25,893 nucleotides of DNA, taken from a virus. The first letter of the stretch is position 1. The number at the start of each line of letters is the position of its first letter. The notes under the pieces were generated by a model that ran no database searches, had not been told where the DNA came from, and saw nothing but the letters and a program-made list of their open reading frames with translations. The stretch covers positions 1-25,893 of IMG/VR virus record IMGVR_UViG_3300004463_000507, one strand, 5' to 3'. The translations under genes and the position numbers were made by a program. Positions 3,126 to 16,834 of the stretch are shown here, in pieces.

Positions 3126-3500
3126 ATGATTCCAAGCCCGAAGTGCGAAACGCCAGTGTCGTGTTCCGTCGCTATCCCGAGGTGCCGTCACTGCTGCGCT
3201 GAGCCCACGCCCGTTCAGCGGGTCGTCGCGGACACCGGATCTGGCGTTCAGCCTCCAGTCGCGATGCTGGGCGAGGCGCTGGAGCATATCGGCGCCGCCG
3301 CGCAACTCGTGACGTCAGCCTGTGGCCGCGAACCGTTGGTCGGCCGAGTTCAAAAAGCCCTTGGCGACGCGGCAGCGCTGGTGCGCACGCTGAGTCACGT
3401 GGCCGGGGCGCAGGCCCCGACGTGCTGGCAGTGCGAAGCCGTGCTCGGCACTACCGAGGCGTGCACGACGTGCGCGGCGAAGCGCTTGGAGGGGCGATGA
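3126..3500 (+). CDS. zinc-ribbon small protein
   Basis: A 124-aa protein. The start at 3126 is supported by AGGAGGAG directly upstream. The N-terminal 30 residues carry several cysteines (PKCETPVSC, CRHCC). The middle is a helical region (LGEALEHIGAAAQLV, VGRVQKALGDAAALVRTLSHV). The C-terminus is a compact ribbon, CWQCEAVLGTTEACTTC, that is CxxC-x9-CxxC followed by AAKR. The same ribbon with identical spacing occurs at the ends of the proteins at 6461-6727 and 7339-7536, so this is a small in-genome family. Zinc binding is inferred from the cysteines and the partner is unknown. Its stop overlaps the next ATG (ATGA), starting a three-gene coupled run. Confidence 0.7.
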   Translation: MIPSPKCETPVSCSVAIPRCRHCCAEPTPVQRVVADTGSGVQPPVAMLGEALEHIGAAAQLVTSACGREPLVGRVQKALGDAAALVRTLSHVAGAQAPTCWQCEAVLGTTEACTTCAAKRLEGR

Positions 3501-6171: not shown

Positions 6172-6354
6172 CTACTTCAGCCCCCGGCGGGCGGCTTCGG
6201 CTTCCAGCGCCGCTCGGTTCTGCCAGCGGGTGCCCTGGAGGAGGACGCTGCCCCCGCCATTCTTGATGGCGGCCTTGGTGGCACGACGCGCCGTCTGGAG
6301 GTCCGCGTCCGTCATCTTCGCCGCCATCTTCGTCATCAGTGCCGTGGGGTTCAT
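6172..6354 (-). CDS. small hypothetical protein expressed from a leaderless promoter
   Basis: A 60-aa protein. The start at 6354 is chosen because a near-consensus promoter (TTGACA-N17-TACATT) ends 7 bases before this ATG and no ribosome-binding site is present, so a leaderless transcript fits. Upstream residues in the same frame run across that promoter. The protein is basic and helical (MTKMAAKMTDADLQTARR, then ATKAAIKNGGGSVLLQGT and RAALEAEAARRGLK). No family recognised. It is divergent from the gene at 6461, which carries the tape-measure-like segment, with both promoters inside the 106-base gap. Confidence 0.6.
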   Translation of the reverse strand: MNPTALMTKMAAKMTDADLQTARRATKAAIKNGGGSVLLQGTRWQNRAALEAEAARRGLK

Positions 6355-6393: not shown

Positions 6394-6424
6394 CGCTCGT
6401 TTCGCGCCCGCTGCCGCGCCGTGT

Positions 6425-6454
6425 GTGACCGCCGTCCACGCCGCGACATACACT
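6425..6454 (+). promoter_or_regulatory. leaderless-type promoter for the gene at 6461
   Basis: GTGACC at 6425-6430, an 18-base spacer and TACACT at 6449-6454, then 6 bases to the ATG at 6461. The start codon has no ribosome-binding site (GGGGCC precedes it), which fits transcription starting at the ATG. Confidence 0.5.
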
Positions 6455-6460
6455 GGGGCC

Positions 6461-6727
6461 ATGACCGACGATGACAACGACGGCTTCGACGAGGCGAGCG
6501 CGGGGAGGGCGCTCGCGCGGCTCGGCTATGACGTGAAGGCGGAGCAGGAGCGCGTAGCCGCGCGGGCCCGGGAGATGTCTGAGTCCCTGTGCATCCCGTC
6601 CTGGTGGAAGGCCGAGTTGTCCCGCTTCCACGCCTCCGAACAGGCAGCGGCCCCGAAGTGCTCGGAGTGTAACGGGCCGCTCGGGTCTACGACGGGGTGC
6701 CGCACCTGCGCTGGGAGCAGGGTCTAG
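6461..6727 (+). CDS. tape-measure-segment mimic with C-terminal zinc ribbon
   Basis: An 88-aa protein. Residues 1-14 are very acidic. Residues 23-60 match residues 783-820 of the tape measure protein without gaps, with 23 of 38 identical, including AREMSESL, IPSWWK and EL-x-RF. Residues 67-83 are a zinc ribbon, CSECNGPLGSTTGCRTC, of the same CxxC-x9-CxxC type as in the proteins at 3126-3500 and 7339-7536. The gene sits alone on the plus strand behind its own leaderless-type promoter, outside the late operon, so it may be expressed in the lysogen. A role in blocking genome injection by a related phage, by imitating the tape measure end, is my inference. It ends in a CTAG shared with the convergent gene at 6724-7218. 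Confidence 0.8.
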   Translation: MTDDDNDGFDEASAGRALARLGYDVKAEQERVAARAREMSESLCIPSWWKAELSRFHASEQAAAPKCSECNGPLGSTTGCRTCAGSRV

Positions 6728-7338: not shown

Positions 7339-7536
7339 TCATGGCTTCTCCTTTGCCCTGTCCTCAGCCCGCTTGGCCGCACAGGCGGGGCAGCCGTCGG
7401 TGCTCCCGAGCGCCACGTCGCACTGCCCGCAAGGCGGGTTACCGGCGTACAGATAGTTGCTGCCGAACCTGCGGAGGTCTCGTTCGAGTCCATCCAAGAG
7501 GGCGAGCGTCTCGGCCTGAAATGGTGTCAACGTCAT
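7339..7536 (-). CDS. small zinc-ribbon protein
   Basis: A 65-aa protein. The ATG at 7536 has GGAGGAG upstream and overlaps the stop of the lipoprotein gene (ATGA), so the two are coupled. The N-terminal part is a helix (FQAETLALLDGLERDLRRFG) and the C-terminal part a ribbon, CGQCDVALGSTDGCPAC, CxxC-x9-CxxC, then AAKRAEDRAKEKP. Spacing and the LGST core are identical to the ribbons at 3126-3500 and 6461-6727. Zinc binding is inferred; the role is unknown. Having it in the same transcript as a secreted lipoprotein is curious, because this protein has no export signal. Confidence 0.75.
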   Translation of the reverse strand: MTLTPFQAETLALLDGLERDLRRFGSNYLYAGNPPCGQCDVALGSTDGCPACAAKRAEDRAKEKP

Positions 7537-8252
7537 GGCTCTCCTCCACCGCCACGCATCATGAGTAACCACTGCGCGTCCACGGCATCTAGAATGTCCA
7601 TCTGCTCCTTCGTTCGAACGACGTCTCGGCACTCGTCTCTGCTGAGTTTCATGGCGTGCATCGCGAGGCGCCCAACCGCAGTCGCCCTTTCGAATTCCTC
7701 TTCGGTGACGTCGACCCCACGCGGCAATGGCGGGCGTGGAACCACGGCCCTGTGTTTCGCGCACATGAAGTAGGCCCATGCCGCCATGCAACTGCGGACC
7801 CGGGGCGGGAACAGCATGGCATCCTTGTCCGCCCCGACGGCCCTTGCGGCGTGCGCTACCGTGTCAACACAGGCCCGGGATGCATCGACCAGCACAGCGG
7901 ACCCGGCCGGGTCCGGGATGTCGACACCGAACAGGAGTTCTCTGGCGCTCGCCGTCGGCGCCCCGTCCGCGGCCCACAACCCCGCCTCCTTCGTGGCGGG
8001 CAGCACCCGCTTGTTGGGCGAGCGGGGCACGGTGGGCTGCTGGGTGCCCCGGGTGGGGTCGTAGAGGCCGGCGCCGTTGGGCGTGTAGACGGGAGCGGCG
8101 GGGGTGCCGGGCGCGAAGCCGGGAGTCATCACCGGAGGGGTGGGTGCCGGGACGAAGGCCGGGGCAGCGGCCTGCTGGTAGGAGGTAGGCGAGGAGGTGG
8201 CGCACGCAGAGAGGGTGGCCACGAGGAGTGCAGCGAGGATGGGTCTGGTCAT
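7533..8252 (-). CDS. lipoprotein, paralogue of the divergent secreted protein
   Basis: A 239-aa protein with a lipoprotein signal: MTRPILAALLVATLSAC, with the lipobox LSAC and the modified Cys at 17. A Pro/Ala/Thr-rich spacer follows (PAPTPPVMTPGFAPGTPAAP). Then comes VPRSPNKRVLPATK and GLWAADGAP, then a helical domain with several Cys (ACVDTVAHAARAVG, RVRSCMAAWAYFMC, DECRDVVRTKEQMDILDAVD). The marks VPRSPN-x-RVLPA-x-K and WAADGAP recur in the protein at 8449-9141, which is transcribed in the opposite direction from the same gap. The pair therefore looks like a duplication with changed export mode, one lipid anchored and one free. Function unknown. The start at 8252 is set by the signal peptide; GAGG lies upstream. 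Confidence 0.75.
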   Translation of the reverse strand: MTRPILAALLVATLSACATSSPTSYQQAAAPAFVPAPTPPVMTPGFAPGTPAAPVYTPNGAGLYDPTRGTQQPTVPRSPNKRVLPATKEAGLWAADGAPTASARELLFGVDIPDPAGSAVLVDASRACVDTVAHAARAVGADKDAMLFPPRVRSCMAAWAYFMCAKHRAVVPRPPLPRGVDVTEEEFERATAVGRLAMHAMKLSRDECRDVVRTKEQMDILDAVDAQWLLMMRGGGGEP

Positions 8253-8448: not shown

Positions 8449-9141
8449 ATGCTCCGCGCTCTCGCCGCCATTACTCTCTTCGTCGCCAGCATCGCCAACG
8501 CTCAGGCTGTGGCGCCCATGCCCACGCCGGTGCGCCCACCGCTCGTTCGGCCCGTGGTCAACGACCCGTACTTCCCGACGCCCGGAGCCACTCCGGCGGG
8601 GGCGGGCATCGTCGTCCCGACCCGAGAGGGAGGCGAGCAGGTAGTGCCGCGTTCTCCGAACACGAGGGTCCTCCCCGCCTCGAAGGACCCGGGGGTGTGG
8701 GCGGCCGACGGGGCGCCGAAGGCGGCGATCGACGTGGGCAAGGTGAACGTGCTTGGTGTGGTGTTCAATGTGGGCCCCGACGTGGGCACGTGGTACGTGG
8801 CCGGAGAGTGTGCAAGCGACCTAAACGAAGCCAAGTCCATCCCGCATGGCTGGGCCGAGATCGTATCCAAGTTCTCGGAGGGGGCGTTGCGCTGCATCAG
8901 TGCCAAGGCGCTCCTGTATTGCGCCTCAGCCACCGAGGACGAACTCAGGAAGGGCTCCAGGATGTACACGCGCCTGCGGCTTGATGGCGCCATTGAGGCA
9001 AAGCGTCGTGCCGAAGCGCTGGAACGCGAGCACTGCGGAGACAAGAATCTGAATCCGCAACAGACGGCCTACCTGATGAGCATCCAATCAACATGGGGTG
9101 GCGTCCACATGAGGCGGATTCGGCAGGAGGAGGGGAAGTGA
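8449..9141 (+). CDS. secreted protein, paralogue of the divergent lipoprotein
   Basis: A 230-aa protein with a Sec signal peptide (MLRALAAITLFVASIANAQA, cleavage likely after ANAQA), but no lipobox. A Pro-rich stretch (PMPTPVRPPLVRP) follows, then VPRSPNTRVLPASK and GVWAADGAP, which match VPRSPNKRVLPATK and GLWAADGAP in the lipoprotein at 7533-8252. The C-terminal half is helical with paired Cys (YVAGECASDLNEA, ALRCISAKALLYC) and ends in a region similar in place to the other paralogue (NPQQTAYLMSIQSTWG). The start is set by the signal peptide; a ribosome-binding site is not obvious. The next gene overlaps the stop (GTGA). Function unknown; a cell-envelope role in the lysogen is likely. Confidence 0.75.
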   Translation: MLRALAAITLFVASIANAQAVAPMPTPVRPPLVRPVVNDPYFPTPGATPAGAGIVVPTREGGEQVVPRSPNTRVLPASKDPGVWAADGAPKAAIDVGKVNVLGVVFNVGPDVGTWYVAGECASDLNEAKSIPHGWAEIVSKFSEGALRCISAKALLYCASATEDELRKGSRMYTRLRLDGAIEAKRRAEALEREHCGDKNLNPQQTAYLMSIQSTWGGVHMRRIRQEEGK

Positions 9142-10355: not shown

Positions 10356-12725
10356 CTATGGCAGCGCGAAGGATAGTCCGTCGAAAGAGACAACGTCGCC
10401 GGCGGAGATGTTGTAGACGCTCACCTTCCCATCCGAGCCAACGCGGATATCGGCCGTGCCACCGCCAGAGAGATAGAGCCGAAACAGTTTCTGCACGGAT
10501 GGTCTGTAGCCAGTGGAGAGTGTGAACACCGTTGCCGCGATTCCCGGGGCAGGCGTTGGGGCCTTCGCCACACCCTTGAGTTCCAGATTCCCGAGCGTGT
10601 TGAGGCGGAACCCAACGTCTCCGTGCGGGCTCCCGTAGTTGCTCCAACTGTTCTCGAAGGCCACGGAGTAGCCGCCGCCGATGGACGGGCCGACCATCTT
10701 CCACGGACGCTGCGGCAACGACGTTGGGAGGAATTCGAGACTGTCAACGTAGACGTCAATGGACGCGGTGCCGCCCGTAAAGATGAGGACTTCGGCATAC
10801 CGGGCCGTACTCGGGGCGGTGTCGAACACCAGCACTTCTGTCCACGCGTTGCTCGTGGCGTTCTTCGTCTCGGAGTAGAGCGTGCCGGTGCCGCCGACGG
10901 TGGAGTACCATCGAATCCCGACACTGACGACTGAAGTCGTCGTGCCGCTGGCGCGCATGTAGACGCGAGCGCAGTACGTCTGACTCGGACGGACCGTCAT
11001 CAACTGGGATGCCAGCGTGGCGGTGTGCGTCGCCGGGAACTTGATGGACGTCCCGCCCGAGAACGAATCAGTGGATGAAGTGATGTCCGTCCCCCATGAA
11101 CCCGCGAGCACACTCCACGTGTCAGGGATGGACCCGTTCACAGCCTCGAAGTCGGCATTGGGCGGGAGGGCGCCGGCCGCCACGTATGGCTGTAGCGTCC
11201 TCGGTTCCACGTACCGCGCAGTCGCACTGACCTCCGACGACGCGGTGCCCCGGTTTCCCACCTCGTCGATGGGCACCACCTTGAAGTAGTACGTGGTCCC
11301 GGGGGTGAGGCCGTTCACGACGAAGGTCGTGGTGTTCGCCCGCTCGTGGAACGTCGAAGACGACGGGGTGGATCCAGACGTGGTGCTCTTGTGCAACTCG
11401 TACTCAGCCGGGAATGGCGGCACGGTGGGCTGCGCGAAGGTGACGGTTGCGGAGCTCGGAGCGCCCGTGGCCACGAGCCCTGTGATGGTGTCGGGTTGCG
11501 CCGCCCGGGGCTGGGGCATGGCGCGCCCCTCGCGCTGCAACCATGACCGGTGCGCGCCCACGGGCTTGCCGCGCAGGGTCAGCGTCGTGCTGTGTCCCTT
11601 CGCGTCGATGCGGTGCGCGGCCGACACCACCGCGAGCGTCTGGTCACTGCTGAAGTTGTCGTCATCCGCCGCGAAGGTGAGTTGGTCGCGCAACTGCACC
11701 CCGTAATGGAAGCCCACTTCCACGGACATGTCGAGCAGTGGGTCTTTCAGGTCATCCCGCGCCGCGTCCGCCATGGCCTGCGCTTCGGTCGGGCTGTCGA
11801 TCGGGCTGTTCTCGTCCTCGGCCAACTGCATGAAGCCACGCCCGTACGTGATGATGGACGTGGCGTCCGAGGAGGTGACGGAGGAGAGCGTCGGCTTGCC
11901 GCCGGGGTCGGTGGTGCTGCGGTTGTAGTAGTAGAGCAGAACGACGTTGCGCACGCCGTCGATGCTCTGCTCCATCTTCGTCACCCGTCGCACTTGCCCA
12001 GGCTGGAAGGTCCACTGCGAGCCCGCCAAACCAGCCCGGTCAGGTTTCAGCAGCGTGAAGCGAAACGCACCAGTGCCGTTGTCCCAGAAGTACCGCGCGT
12101 CCCAGCCGATGGTGAGGGCCCGCTCGCGCACGCCCGCGAGCACCGGCGCCTTCTTCTGCTTGTACTTCGACAGCACCACGCCCGGGGACACCGGCACGTA
12201 GAGCGTCACCCCCGTGCTGTTGTCCGTCAGGATGGACTGCATCACCGTCTGGACGGCTACCCCAGTGGTGTCGTTGCCGTACTCGCGGTCCGTCTCGATG
12301 TACGCGCGCAGCAGGGCGCCGGCATCGTCCCGCCCCGTGAACGTGATGGGGTCCTTATCGAGCGCCAGTCGCTCAATCTTCCCCCGGAACACCTCGCGCC
12401 AGTCGCCCGACTGCGGCTCGTCTCCCAGGGGCAGCGTCGCCGCCTCAACGTAGAATGGCCGCGCGAGCGCGAGCACCCCCGTCAGTTTGTTGCTCAGCAG
12501 TGGGTTGAGGGAGAAATCCTCCAGCCGCCGCCGGAGTTGCACCGTCGCCTGTGCGCACGGCTCGTTGATGGATTCGTCCCACTCCACCGACACCAGCCAA
12601 TCGCGCCCCTCGAGCGTCGTCACGTCCTGCCACGCCGAGCCATTCCACACGAAGACGCGGGCGCGCACGGAGTACCCGTCCGGGGCCTGGAGAACCTTCG
12701 TGTCCTGTCCCGTCAGCGTCCGCAC
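10356..12725 (-). CDS. tail-tip / fibre protein (hub-like N-terminus, FnIII, jelly roll, fibre-type C-terminus)
   Basis: A 789-aa protein with a GTG start at 12725 preceded by GGGAGG. Residues about 1-400 are a tail-hub type region (GRDWLVSVEWDESINEPCAQ, FRGKIERLALDKDPI), as expected for the Tal/gp27-like protein that closes the tube. Residues 412-505 are a fibronectin type III domain (TGLVATGAPSSATVTF, NGLTPGTTYYFKVVPIDEVG). Residues 520-668 are a carbohydrate-binding-like jelly roll. Residues 670-789 resemble receptor-binding fibre ends (LGNLELKGV, TLSTGYRPS, RVGSDGKVSVYN, VSFDGLSFALP). It is the last gene of the late operon and is probably the main host-contact protein. Assignment by position and domain look; no catalytic motif seen. 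Confidence 0.8.
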   Translation of the reverse strand: MRTLTGQDTKVLQAPDGYSVRARVFVWNGSAWQDVTTLEGRDWLVSVEWDESINEPCAQATVQLRRRLEDFSLNPLLSNKLTGVLALARPFYVEAATLPLGDEPQSGDWREVFRGKIERLALDKDPITFTGRDDAGALLRAYIETDREYGNDTTGVAVQTVMQSILTDNSTGVTLYVPVSPGVVLSKYKQKKAPVLAGVRERALTIGWDARYFWDNGTGAFRFTLLKPDRAGLAGSQWTFQPGQVRRVTKMEQSIDGVRNVVLLYYYNRSTTDPGGKPTLSSVTSSDATSIITYGRGFMQLAEDENSPIDSPTEAQAMADAARDDLKDPLLDMSVEVGFHYGVQLRDQLTFAADDDNFSSDQTLAVVSAAHRIDAKGHSTTLTLRGKPVGAHRSWLQREGRAMPQPRAAQPDTITGLVATGAPSSATVTFAQPTVPPFPAEYELHKSTTSGSTPSSSTFHERANTTTFVVNGLTPGTTYYFKVVPIDEVGNRGTASSEVSATARYVEPRTLQPYVAAGALPPNADFEAVNGSIPDTWSVLAGSWGTDITSSTDSFSGGTSIKFPATHTATLASQLMTVRPSQTYCARVYMRASGTTTSVVSVGIRWYSTVGGTGTLYSETKNATSNAWTEVLVFDTAPSTARYAEVLIFTGGTASIDVYVDSLEFLPTSLPQRPWKMVGPSIGGGYSVAFENSWSNYGSPHGDVGFRLNTLGNLELKGVAKAPTPAPGIAATVFTLSTGYRPSVQKLFRLYLSGGGTADIRVGSDGKVSVYNISAGDVVSFDGLSFALP

Positions 12726-12726
12726 G

Positions 12727-13515
12727 TCACACCTCCCGCAGAGTGAATTCGATGGCGTGCATGGCCGTCAGCGCCCCGCCGTTGGACTGCCGCGTCACCT
12801 TCACGTCCGTTACCTTCCCGCGCACCGTGACGGAGGACGGGGCGAACGTGCCTGCGGCGGTGACTCGCGGTAGAGCGCTCCACGCTCCGGCGCTGTGCTG
12901 GGCGTACAGGGACGACGCCCACGAGGCCGGAATGGCAAATGGGAACGCAACCACATCGTCAATCAGCCAATCCGTCCCGTCCGCGCCGAAGACAACCGCG
13001 GCCCCGCCAGAAACGGTGACCTCTCCATGGCTAGTGCCAGAGATCACGGAGACGCCGTTGTGCCACTCGGCCCCGTCGCTTCTGATGGCCCAGTGCTCCC
13101 ACACGCCAGCCGCCTCCTTGCTCCACCACATCACCGACCATGACGCCCCGAGGCCGAGAGACCATGTCGGCCCAGACACACCGGTGTCGGCGACAAGGCA
13201 GCCGGCGCCCCACTTCATGCCGGACGCGGTGATGGTCGCCGCCCCCGTCACAGAAGGCCCGCGCCCGCGCAGACTGTACCGGTCGGTGTCGAGCGGGAAG
13301 GCGTGACCCTTCCCTTCGATGAGGCCCGCCCAGGCGTCCACCTCGGACGCGGGGACAGGCGTGGTCGTCATCCGCCACTCCCGCTTCGTGGAGGTGGGTC
13401 CGCCCACGAGGTCGCCCGACGGGCTGCGCTCCGTCTCGCCTCCAACTCCGACGTAGGACATGGAGACGCTGTCCACCGCGATGCGCACCGTTACGCCGTT
13501 GAGAGAAAGGTACAT
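12727..13515 (-). CDS. distal-tail-like (Dit-type) protein
   Basis: A 262-aa, beta-rich protein without Cys-rich or membrane parts. It lies between the tape measure gene and the tail-tip gene, the usual place of the distal tail protein that forms the adaptor ring of a siphophage baseplate. The start MYLSLNGVTVRIAVDSVSM, the REWRMTTTPVPASEV segment, the Gly/Trp-rich middle (WSVMWWSKEAAGVWEHW) and the end TAMHAIEFTLREV fit a Dit-like N-terminal domain with an inserted lectin-like sandwich in the middle (about 95-190). Identification rests on position and predicted fold, not on a signature motif. Its stop is two bases from the next GTG. Confidence 0.65.
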   Translation of the reverse strand: MYLSLNGVTVRIAVDSVSMSYVGVGGETERSPSGDLVGGPTSTKREWRMTTTPVPASEVDAWAGLIEGKGHAFPLDTDRYSLRGRGPSVTGAATITASGMKWGAGCLVADTGVSGPTWSLGLGASWSVMWWSKEAAGVWEHWAIRSDGAEWHNGVSVISGTSHGEVTVSGGAAVVFGADGTDWLIDDVVAFPFAIPASWASSLYAQHSAGAWSALPRVTAAGTFAPSSVTVRGKVTDVKVTRQSNGGALTAMHAIEFTLREV

Positions 13516-13520
13516 GGTCG

Positions 13521-16166
13521 TCAGGGGATGTACTGCTCTTCGCCGTACTGGCTTAAGGTCTTGCGGCCCTTCTTCTCGTCGATGCGGTCAATCACCTTGT
13601 CCGCCGTGATCGCGTCTTCCTGTTCCTTGGTGATGTGGATGATGGTGGTGCTGTTGTCGTGGACGACGGTCCCGCCGCCGCTGGAGCCACTGCCCGGCGC
13701 GCCCGGGTCCGCCGCGTTGAAGCGCCCGAGTTCCACCTTCCACCAGGACGGGATGTTGAGGCTTTCGCTCATCTCCCGCGCCTTATCCGCCACCTTCTGC
13801 TCTGCCCGTGCGGTGTCGTACGAGGAGTTCTTGAGGTTGTTGAGCGCCTTGTCGATGCCGGAGAGGTCAAGCCCCGCTCCCTCTCCACCGAAGAACTGGG
13901 CGATCTCGTTGACGATCTCCCCGACGAACTTGATGATCTCCAGCGTCGCAATGCCGAAGGCGCGGAACACCATGAAGAGCGGCCGCGCGACGAACTCGAT
14001 GATGGGGGTGATGGCGTCAATGAGGAGGAACAGCACGCTGTCCATCTCGGAGAAAATCGAAAGCAGGGGCATGAGCGGTTCAATCAACTTGCCCACGGAG
14101 TCAGCCAACTTCTGGAGGATGGACTCCACCTGCTCCAGCATGTTCTTGAAGGCTTCACTCTGGGTGAGCAACCCGACGCCAGCGCCGATGATGGCGCCCC
14201 AGGGCCCCGCCGCCGAGCCCGTCTCCGCCCCCTGCATGACGGCCGAGGTGGTTGGGCCGGTCCCGCTCAGCAGCATCCCGCCTAGTTCCGTCGGCACGTT
14301 GGCCCGTGCCCGCTCCAACTTCGCGAACGACTCGGCCGCCGCCGAGGCGGACTCCGCCAGGGCCTTCTGTGCGTCGGCCGCGAGCGTGGCCTGCCTCGCT
14401 TCCGCCAGCAGGCCCTTCTTCTCCAGCGCGCTCGCATCGAGCCGACGCGCAGCCTCCTCCTTCAGCGCCGTGGCCATGGTGTCGAGCGCGGCGTTGAAGT
14501 TGGCGAATCCCTGAGTGGGCTTTGGCGCGTCCGGACGAGCCTCCGCTCGGCGCAGCGCCACCGCCCGGTCAATGTCGTCGAACTGCTTCAGCAGCGCGGC
14601 GGCGGCAGCGTCCTTGCTCTTGAATCCTTCAATGGCCCGCTCGGCACTGTCGCCGAGCTCCCCCAAGAGGTCCGCCTTCCCGAGTGACTCCTGAGCGGAG
14701 GACCGAGATGCAGCCTCGCGGCCAGACGCGGCGACGGCATCCTTCTTGCGGCCCATGGCGGAGAGGTCCGCAGCGTTCGCCTTCTCGCGGTCTGCATCCC
14801 GCTCCTGCTCGGCAGCCTGGGCAAGCATCTTCGCCTGCGCCTTCCGAGCACGCTCCAACTTCTCCAGGGCCTCGTCGAGGTTGGCAAACCCCTTAGTCGG
14901 ATCCTCCCCAGCAAGGTCGGAGCGCCGACGCTGCATTGCGCGCTCGATATCCTGAAGCTTTCTGTTGAGTTCGAGTTGGGCGTTGACGAAAGCCTCCAAC
15001 GCATTGCCGGACGCCTCCGAAGCCTTCTTGGCGAACTCGAATAGTTTCTTCTGCGCTTCAACAGCGCTGTCGATTGCGGCGGAGTATTTCTTGGCCGCAG
15101 GCGCGGCCTTCTCGGCGTCCTTCTGCATGGCCGCGCCGGGGCCGTCATTGGACCAGATGGCGCGGAACTGCCGGCCCTCGGCCTTCAGTGAGGCCATGAT
15201 GTCGTTCCATGCCGCAACGGCCGCCTCGCCAGAGCGCGACGACATCGCGTCGTCATCGAACAACGCCGCCGTCCATGCGGCTGCACCTGCTGCGGCCTTC
15301 CCGACGACGTCGAACGCCGTCCCGACGACCACGCATGCGCTGGCCAGCAAGCGCAGTGAAGTAGTCAGCGTGTCGAATGCCCCGGCGCTACCGCTTGCGC
15401 GTGTCGCGCTGGTGGCGAGCTCCTCGGCCAACGCGGCCATGCTGGGTGCGAGGTCTTGTGCCACGCGGAGTGCCAGCGACTGGCTGGCCTTCTCCAGCCG
15501 CGTAAGCGCGTCATTGAACTCACCGGCAGCAGCGGCGCCCTTCTCTGTAACGACCGCCCCCGTCCGCTCGGCCTCATCTCCGAAAGCAGCGAGCCCCGCC
15601 TTCCCGTTGTTCAGCATGGGGATGAGCTTCACCCCCTCGTCGCCAAACAACTTCACGGCGAGCGCCGTCTTCGCTGCGCCGTCGTCCGTCTCGGCAAATC
15701 GCTGCGCGATGTCGGCGAAGACGTCACCAGTCGCGCGGAGTTTTCCATGTGCGTCAGTGGCGCTGATTCCGAGCACCTTGAAGATCGCGGCCTGCTCGGA
15801 CGTCCTTACCTGGGACTTGGCCATCAGGTCGGCCGTCTTCGAGAGCGCCTTCCCAACCGCCTCGGCCGAGGAACCTGAGAGTTCCGCTGCGTAGGCCAGC
15901 TTCGAGAGTTCCTCCACCGGAACGCCCACGGCGGAGGCCATTTCGCCCATGGCGTCGGCCGCGTCGGCGCCGCTCCGGACGAAGTCCACCAGCCACGCCG
16001 CGCCATCCTTCAACGCGTCGAAGGTGAAGGCGCCGGCCAGGATGTTGCCGGTGCGCTCCGCCTGCTTGCCGAAGTCGTCAAGCTTGCGGTTCGCCTCGTC
16101 GAGCCCCTTGCGGAGTTCGGCGGACTGGACCTGCAAATCCACTACAAGCGAAGCCAAGCGAGCCAT
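13521..16166 (-). CDS. tape measure protein
   Basis: An 881-aa protein, the longest in the window, directly after the chaperone frameshift pair as in other siphophages. Residues 1-45 are a coiled coil; about 60-230 look like the TP901-type tape measure core (DAADAMGEMASAVGVPVEEL, GISATDAHGKL, KLFGDEGVKLIPML). Then come long Ala-rich helices with an internal duplication (403-490 and 529-615, both with D-I-[ED]-R-A and GFAN marks). Hydrophobic segments lie at about 640-670 and 708-760, likely for membrane passage. Residues 783-820 are shared with the 88-aa protein at 6461-6727. The length predicts a tail of roughly 130 nm, using the usual 1.5 angstrom per residue. Confidence 0.93.
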   Translation of the reverse strand: MARLASLVVDLQVQSAELRKGLDEANRKLDDFGKQAERTGNILAGAFTFDALKDGAAWLVDFVRSGADAADAMGEMASAVGVPVEELSKLAYAAELSGSSAEAVGKALSKTADLMAKSQVRTSEQAAIFKVLGISATDAHGKLRATGDVFADIAQRFAETDDGAAKTALAVKLFGDEGVKLIPMLNNGKAGLAAFGDEAERTGAVVTEKGAAAAGEFNDALTRLEKASQSLALRVAQDLAPSMAALAEELATSATRASGSAGAFDTLTTSLRLLASACVVVGTAFDVVGKAAAGAAAWTAALFDDDAMSSRSGEAAVAAWNDIMASLKAEGRQFRAIWSNDGPGAAMQKDAEKAAPAAKKYSAAIDSAVEAQKKLFEFAKKASEASGNALEAFVNAQLELNRKLQDIERAMQRRRSDLAGEDPTKGFANLDEALEKLERARKAQAKMLAQAAEQERDADREKANAADLSAMGRKKDAVAASGREAASRSSAQESLGKADLLGELGDSAERAIEGFKSKDAAAAALLKQFDDIDRAVALRRAEARPDAPKPTQGFANFNAALDTMATALKEEAARRLDASALEKKGLLAEARQATLAADAQKALAESASAAAESFAKLERARANVPTELGGMLLSGTGPTTSAVMQGAETGSAAGPWGAIIGAGVGLLTQSEAFKNMLEQVESILQKLADSVGKLIEPLMPLLSIFSEMDSVLFLLIDAITPIIEFVARPLFMVFRAFGIATLEIIKFVGEIVNEIAQFFGGEGAGLDLSGIDKALNNLKNSSYDTARAEQKVADKAREMSESLNIPSWWKVELGRFNAADPGAPGSGSSGGGTVVHDNSTTIIHITKEQEDAITADKVIDRIDEKKGRKTLSQYGEEQYIP

Positions 16167-16169
16167 GGG

Positions 16170-16834
16170 TCAATCCTGCTTCGTGGTGCGGACGGCGGCG
16201 GTCTTGAAGATGGCGTCCAAGAGCGCCTCGGTCTCGTCCGGCGTTGGCTCGCGCTCGGGCGTCCGGCGCAGCATGTAGTCGCGCGGGTCCGCCGTGGCTC
16301 CCTTCTTCAGGTGTGGAGCGATGCTCATTGCGCACTGCATCCCGTGCCACATGTCGAGCACGGGGAACCCGAACGGCTCCAGCGCGTAGAACTCAAGGCA
16401 CTCCGCCCAGAAGTCTGCGGACATGTCCTCAAGCATTTCGTCCGGGTTTCTGTACCTACCGCCCAGCGCGAGCCAGTACCTGAATGCTACTCGGCGCTCG
16501 TGCTGGGCTTCGAGTTTCCCGGGGCACCACCCTTGCCGGCCTGCATCTCGAAGCACTTCGTGGCGATGGCCGTGAGGGACTCAGCGGAGATGCCCTCCAG
16601 AAACGCGGGCACTTCCTCGAGCGAGAACATGCGAGATCCGCTCTCGTCCACCAGCATGTCGGCGACCATGGCCGCGAGGCCCTCGGCGCTCCCGAGGTTG
16701 ACGCCGCCGCGAAGGCGGAGGGCGAGACTGGCGGACGGCTTGGCCAGCAGCAGCGGGGCGCTGAACTCGGAGATGGTGAGCGGCACGGTATCGCGCTTCG
16801 GGGATCGGGCTTGTTCCTTCGACAGGGGGCGCAT
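16170..16834 (-). CDS. tail assembly chaperone GT, -1 frameshift product
   Basis: The 221-aa product made when ribosomes slip at GGGAAAC (16514-16520). Reading starts at 16834 in the G frame, passes codon 107 and moves back one base into the frame that ends at 16170. The T part (EAQHERRVAFRYWLALGGRY, NPDEMLEDMSADFWAECLEF) contains an aromatic and acidic region typical of the T extension that binds the tail tube protein. The two frames differ by exactly -1 and overlap across the slip site, as in lambda gpG/gpGT. The frame also has a possible start of its own upstream of the slip site, but it lies inside G and has no function of its own in known phages. Confidence 0.9.
16487..16834 (-). CDS. 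tail assembly chaperone G
   Basis: A 115-aa protein, the unshifted product; ATG at 16834 with GAGGAC upstream. It has the usual plan: a short beta start (RDTVPLTISEFSAPLLLAKP) and a helical rest (LAAMVADMLVDE, LEEVPAFLEGISAESLTAIA). It lies between the tail tube gene and the tape measure gene, the fixed place for this chaperone. In siphophages G and GT coat the tape measure protein and bring tube subunits to it during tail assembly; they are absent from the finished virion. The last residues, after the slip site, are the low-complexity SKPSTSAE. Confidence 0.88.
   Translation of the reverse strand: MRPLSKEQARSPKRDTVPLTISEFSAPLLLAKPSASLALRLRGGVNLGSAEGLAAMVADMLVDESGSRMFSLEEVPAFLEGISAESLTAIATKCFEMQAGKGGAPGNSKPSTSAE
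16514..16520 (-). promoter_or_regulatory. -1 ribosomal slippery site GGGAAAC
   Basis: On the minus-strand mRNA the codons CCG GGA AAC carry G-GGA-AAC, a canonical X-XXY-YYZ heptamer of the same type as the lambda GGGAAAG site. Shifting here gives GGG AAA CTC GAA GCC, which continues straight into the T frame. Confidence 0.92.

Follow-up and report, generated by a model that had tools for sequence, protein, structure and literature searches.

The window, a stretch of 25,893 bases, is the IMG/VR virus record IMGVR_UViG_3300004463_000507. It matches parts of a 39,636-base IMG/VR contig (G001) with full identity, and this contig wraps round it; the genome of the window phage is therefore circularly mapping, with a length of ∼39.5 kb. 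The minus strand carries the genes for terminase, portal, protease, capsid and tail proteins, which begin at ∼25.6 kb and run to 10.4 kb. A candidate tail assembly chaperone is encoded at 16487–16834. The tape measure protein (TMP) of 881 aa is encoded at 13521–16166 (minus strand) and was identified by a match to phrog_8462, tail length tape measure (E 2e-44), and by a PhageMin_Tail match above cut-off. Two more tail-operon genes, for proteins of 262 and 789 aa, follow the TMP gene at 10356–13515 (minus strand); the 789-aa protein has fn3 and weak tail-protein matches. Their position after the TMP makes both products candidate tail-tip proteins that would hold the C-terminal segment of the TMP. 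In other siphophages the tail tip or baseplate holds the C-terminal part of the TMP during assembly; the JBD30 model has this part leaving the baseplate first on infection (PMC10721106, PMC11445458).

Past the last tail gene, on the plus strand, is a gene (m1, 6461–6727) for an 88-aa protein. A sequence-only reading of this DNA had put the gene outside the late operon, and its orientation opposite to the tail operon bears that out. Among the six frames the codon score is highest for the frame of the m1 ORF; the gene call is further backed by the BLASTP match, the shuffle control and the counterpart in a second phage given below. The same reading had assigned to m1 a leaderless-type promoter of its own. 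A promoter-like site does exist 6 nt 5′ of the ATG (GTGACC-18-TACACT, 6421–6460, plus strand), but it matches at 8 of 12 positions, is not significant and falls under the scan threshold, whereas the better promoter (TTGACA-17-TACATT, 10 of 12, leaderless-type, 7 nt from an ATG) faces the other way and precedes the adjoining divergent ORF of 60 aa (6172–6354, minus strand).

The protein encoded by m1 resembles the TMP of its own phage. BLASTP aligned m1 residues 8–64 with TMP residues 765–824 (E 2e-15, a 3-residue gap being allowed). The core, residues 23–60 (6527–6640, plus strand), aligns without gaps to TMP residues 783–820 (13707–13820, minus strand) with 23 of 38 residues identical, and around IPSWWK a 20-base stretch is identical in the DNA of both genes. 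The local score of 139 stands against a mean of 36.6 and a maximum of 63 in 1000 shuffles. The coordinates and counts first reported for this alignment proved correct. We conclude that m1 is, by its sequence, a true copy of a TMP segment; no other small gene in the predicted proteome of the window phage resembles a structural gene as m1 does. The segment copied by m1 comprises TMP residues 766–820 (13707–13871, minus strand) and lies C-terminal to the last hydrophobic stretch of the TMP. It had been taken for the C-terminal end; the segment itself is confirmed, but it sits ∼60 residues short of the C-terminus.

After the copied segment m1 carries a C-terminal zinc ribbon, C67-x2-C70-x9-C80-x2-C83 (6659–6709, plus strand). 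The same ribbon ends two other small proteins of the window phage, encoded at 3264–3500 (plus strand) and 7339–7536 (minus strand). The pattern C-x2-C-x4-LG[ST]T-x2-C-x2-CA-x-[KS]R is thus common to three otherwise dissimilar small proteins, as a shared tag in this phage. The best Pfam match for m1 was DUF2703, with 16.6 bits against a cut-off of 23.6, and PADLOC models gave no match to the mimic proteins.

The neighbourhood of m1 is an accessory stretch with several predicted lipoproteins and secreted proteins. A divergent gene pair in it, at 7533–8252 (minus strand) and 8449–9141 (plus strand), encodes a predicted lipoprotein and a secreted protein that have a 46-residue segment in common (63% identity), a further example of segment copying within the accessory region; the second phage described below has a relative (L027:3888–4571). 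Elsewhere, an ∼80-base repeat with 91% identity occurs at 844–920 and at 14361–14440 of G001. Both copies hold the promoter-like site TTGACA-17-TACTGT, and the repeat is possibly a duplicated promoter region.

A degenerate pattern of the segment's motif was scanned through 2.9 million viral contigs, and a second pattern scan was made afterwards. The first scan added a single TMP with the segment. It is encoded by G002, a phage contig of 43 kb that has end repeats of 127 bases and whose structural proteins are mostly 50–75% identical to their counterparts in the window phage. Searching G002 with the 88-aa m1 protein gave two matches, the TMP and a separate small ORF (m2). The m2 protein has 78 aa, begins MSNDRDDIAAALHRLGEDSYDASAETRRMSEEVRGATERVSGISQWWRAEVARFDAL and ends in a short tail after the segment. 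Its gene lies just past the end of the tail operon and is opposite to it in strand, in a group of plus-strand genes of which one encodes a secreted protein and another a lipoprotein. G002 also encodes a repressor-like HTH protein (L028:13518–13742, plus strand; PHROG transcriptional repressor, E 1e-9). Neither genome, that of the window phage or G002, has a match to tyrosine integrase (PF00589) or serine resolvase (PF00239); plasmid-like lysogeny is conceivable for either phage.

In both scans the motif in open frames was confined to these two phages, each with one copy in the TMP and one in a small protein. The segment is thus no common motif of many unrelated proteins in the collections scanned, and in the single relative found a mimic is again paired with a TMP segment and co-varies with it. 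Most other contigs with the WW motif have it within stop-bounded fragments of at most 61 aa, the real matches being the two TMPs and the two mimics. Two viral matches to the m1 ORF (39%; L006 and L007) were dismissed as chance, since longer ORFs occupy the other strand there. In 13 further phages or contigs with a TMP, no ORF was similar to that TMP (best E 0.14, vs 1e-9 and 7e-8 in the two phages), and the segment is absent from more distant TMP contigs. No relative was found in phage records, plasmid records or bacterial genome contigs, and the major capsid protein as a query produced no further close relative.

The zinc ribbon is missing from m2. Its presence in m1 stands as first described, but not as an essential part of the protein. 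This bears on the idea that the segment is a docking tag, which would carry a small protein (with its zinc ribbon in the window phage) into the tail tip for delivery to the next host. Fusion of the m1 segment to a ribbon that is present on two other small proteins is what such a module might look like; with m2 lacking a cargo domain and the gene placed outside the late operon, we regard this use as quite improbable. Since m1 and m2 differ outside the TMP-like segment, that segment is the conserved part.

Each mimic is closest to the TMP of its own phage. The local scores of the own pairs are 139 (m1 with its TMP) and 152 (m2 with the TMP of G002), and those of the other pairs are 98 (m1 with m2), 103 (m1 with the TMP of G002) and 91 (m2 with the TMP of the window phage). 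Core identities are 23/38 and 23/39 for the own pairs and 15/38 for the two mimics, and a one-residue insertion (SG-I) is common to m2 and the TMP of G002 only. The quartet test favoured own pairing by 9.4–10.9 lnL units under three amino-acid models, with five sites for own pairing (one of them the shared indel) vs two for role pairing. The tree with mimic grouped with mimic and TMP with TMP had AU p-values of 0.044–0.089, depending on the model; it is disfavoured, not clearly rejected.

At identical residues the synonymous codons agree as often as expected by chance: 12 observed vs 12.5 expected (sd 2.0) in the own pair of m1 and 13 vs 14.0 (sd 2.3) in that of m2. Synonymous change has thus had time to reach saturation without the proteins losing their likeness, which points to selection on the protein sequence, rather than recent DNA copying, as what has maintained it. 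Recent gene conversion is ruled out by codon identity at the chance level; old independent captures, or an old gene conversion followed by constraint, are possible histories. The 20-base identity needs no special cause, given that codons of identical residues in m1 and the TMP agree at the chance rate. Taken jointly, the copy, its pairing with the phage's own TMP and the constraint on it are, in our judgment, very probably real.

Could m1 nevertheless be a functionless recombinational copy of a TMP fragment? The second segment duplication in the same accessory region would suit such an origin, yet a relic would hardly persist as an intact ORF with a coding signature in two diverged phages, nor would it keep protein identity past synonymous saturation, and we consider a neutral relic highly improbable. 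Full tape measures the two mimics are not either: with 88 and 78 aa they cover ∼55–60 TMP residues, and neither is a long tail-spanning helical protein.

Helices are predicted in the mimic at residues 11–20, 25–42 and 47–61, the last two belonging to the core, and the same three helices are predicted, with low confidence, in the TMP beyond the last hydrophobic region. Model confidence was low (mean pLDDT 66 and 53). With these low-confidence models as queries, the fold search against viral models found no match; PDB profile matches were short and helical only, and either lacked a significant stretch or had poor E-values. Neither mimic has a membrane segment or an export signal. The maximum 19-residue hydropathy is −0.08 for m1 and 0.81 for m2, net charges are −3 and −7, and both proteins are acidic and soluble by prediction. 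A small acidic protein with no membrane or export signal would act in the cytoplasm, where new TMP enters tails; thus the mimic should meet the TMP segment there, during tail assembly.

This placement bears on the function first proposed for m1, that a lysogen expresses it and that genome injection by related phages is blocked in the manner of HK97 gp15. In its general form this is superinfection exclusion, with the mimic taking a host factor that the TMP of a related phage uses, so that genome entry fails. Own-TMP matching would direct the exclusion at the same kind of phage, the accessory neighbourhood with its predicted lipoproteins and secreted proteins is congenial to it, and HK97 gp15 and streptococcal Ltp are cited as TMP-connected exclusion cases. 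Against it, lysogen expression is unsupported, no integrase or resolvase having been found in either genome. The gp15-like mode is unlikely on topology as well: gp15 is hydrophobic at its N-terminus, the mimics are acidic, soluble and without an export signal, and in the JBD30 model the C-domain of the entering TMP emerges outside the cytoplasm. With likeness to gp15 limited to a match of the coiled-coil type, we judge superinfection exclusion unlikely.

Another candidate role is that of an assembly cofactor. Here the mimic would fill the site for the TMP segment on the tail-tip hub, or join the C-terminal bundle of the TMP, and so prime or regulate tail initiation. Other siphophages do anchor TMP C-termini in the tail tip, the predicted helices of mimic and TMP match, and a hub from the same phage would explain why each mimic matches its own TMP. 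A hub role does not predict, however, that the gene should lie outside the late operon, on the opposite strand and among accessory genes in both phages, and a protein of this kind is missing from all 13 of the additional phages or contigs with a TMP. A cofactor role is thus conceivable but rather doubtful.

The reading we prefer, tentatively, is that the mimic may be a decoy against a factor that targets assembly. A protein that stays TMP-like would, we infer, bind whatever recognises the segment in the TMP. The hub, chaperones and inhibitors such as Tab and Rta can all reach new TMP in the cytoplasm; by occupying a factor that binds the C-terminal segment, the mimic would leave the real TMP free. 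Most likely such a factor would come from the host, a prophage or a satellite and would inhibit tail assembly, like Tab or Rta. A decoy has to resemble the phage's own TMP and therefore fits the own pairing seen.

Evidence that we count for a decoy, from comparisons and predictions, comprises the homology, the second phage with the same pairing, the own-pair scores, the quartet test, the codon saturation, the conservation of the segment in otherwise different proteins, the matching helices and the solubility. Published work adds the anchoring of TMP C-termini in the tail and the defences directed at TMPs. Counted against it are the small sample of two phages (n = 2), the AU p-values of the role-grouping tree, the weak promoter in front of m1, the missing TMP likeness of Tab and anti-Tab, which leaves the mechanism without precedent, and the consideration that a hub competitor would hamper the phage's own tails unless timing or affinity differs. 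More broadly, and with some further reserve, the two mimics may represent a class of dedicated own-TMP decoys: soluble copies of a C-terminal, tail-tip-proximal segment that co-evolve with the TMP and absorb TMP-targeting factors or control TMP binding during assembly. Only a few copies of the TMP are present per virion. Several recently described defences, among them Tab, Rta and SNIPE, are directed at TMPs. If the mimic tracks the TMP in two diverged phages, it would be well suited as a counter-measure or as a control point.

Those defences make TMPs a frequent target. Tab (83 aa) works through the C-terminal region of the TMP and stops tail assembly (PMC10884400), Rta (80 aa) of the V. cholerae element PLE11 is directed at a TMP (PMC12987554) and SNIPE binds TMPs (PMC13190303). 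With Tab and Rta as small TMP-acting proteins, one might suppose that the mimic itself poisons assembly of the TMP or hub in co-infecting related phages. Yet the mimic is most like its own TMP, so that the phage's own progeny would be hit most, and we found no paired counter-protein and no relatives of Tab or anti-Tab in either genome; a blocker of rivals is accordingly very unlikely.

Like the mimic, Tab and anti-Tab of Pseudomonas phage JBD26 are small proteins with links to tail assembly and to the C-terminal region of the TMP, and tab is oriented against the late genes and has a promoter of its own (PMC10884400). The mimic genes of the two phages are placed past the tail genes. In contrast, Tab and anti-Tab are unlike their own TMP (z 0.6 and −0.2), and Tab blocks assembly while the mimic copies the target; there is therefore no precedent in this pair for a decoy mechanism. 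Neither had a BLAST match at E 1 in either phage proteome, and z-scores against the mimics were −0.9 to 1.5. Rta and PLE resemble the present case in the 80-aa TMP-directed protein and in the substitute TMP that the satellite provides. However, PLE TMPs enter virions as the tape measure, whereas the window phage gene is only a segment of its own TMP, and Rta, with no reported TMP likeness, is set apart from the mimic by its description (PMC12987554).

HK97 gp15 is likewise a small accessory protein with an activity connected to the TMP, but it has a strongly hydrophobic N-terminal stretch and TMP likeness at background (z 2.2), unlike the soluble, TMP-derived mimics. It had no BLAST match in either phage proteome, its shuffle z-scores of 2.7 (m1) and 4.1 (m2) are at the background of coiled-coil types, and its apparent match to the TMP falls on a charged helical stretch rather than on the copied segment. 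By these comparisons gp15, Tab and anti-Tab are all unrelated to the mimics. The open-access literature searched gave no precedent for decoys, paralogues or mimics of a TMP. In lambda gpH and JBD30 gp46 the helical C-terminal part of the TMP sits in the tail tip; in the window phage a segment of that region is, in addition, a separate small protein. Thus, known systems target TMPs, and what appears to be new here is a gene that reproduces part of its own phage's TMP as a protein by itself.
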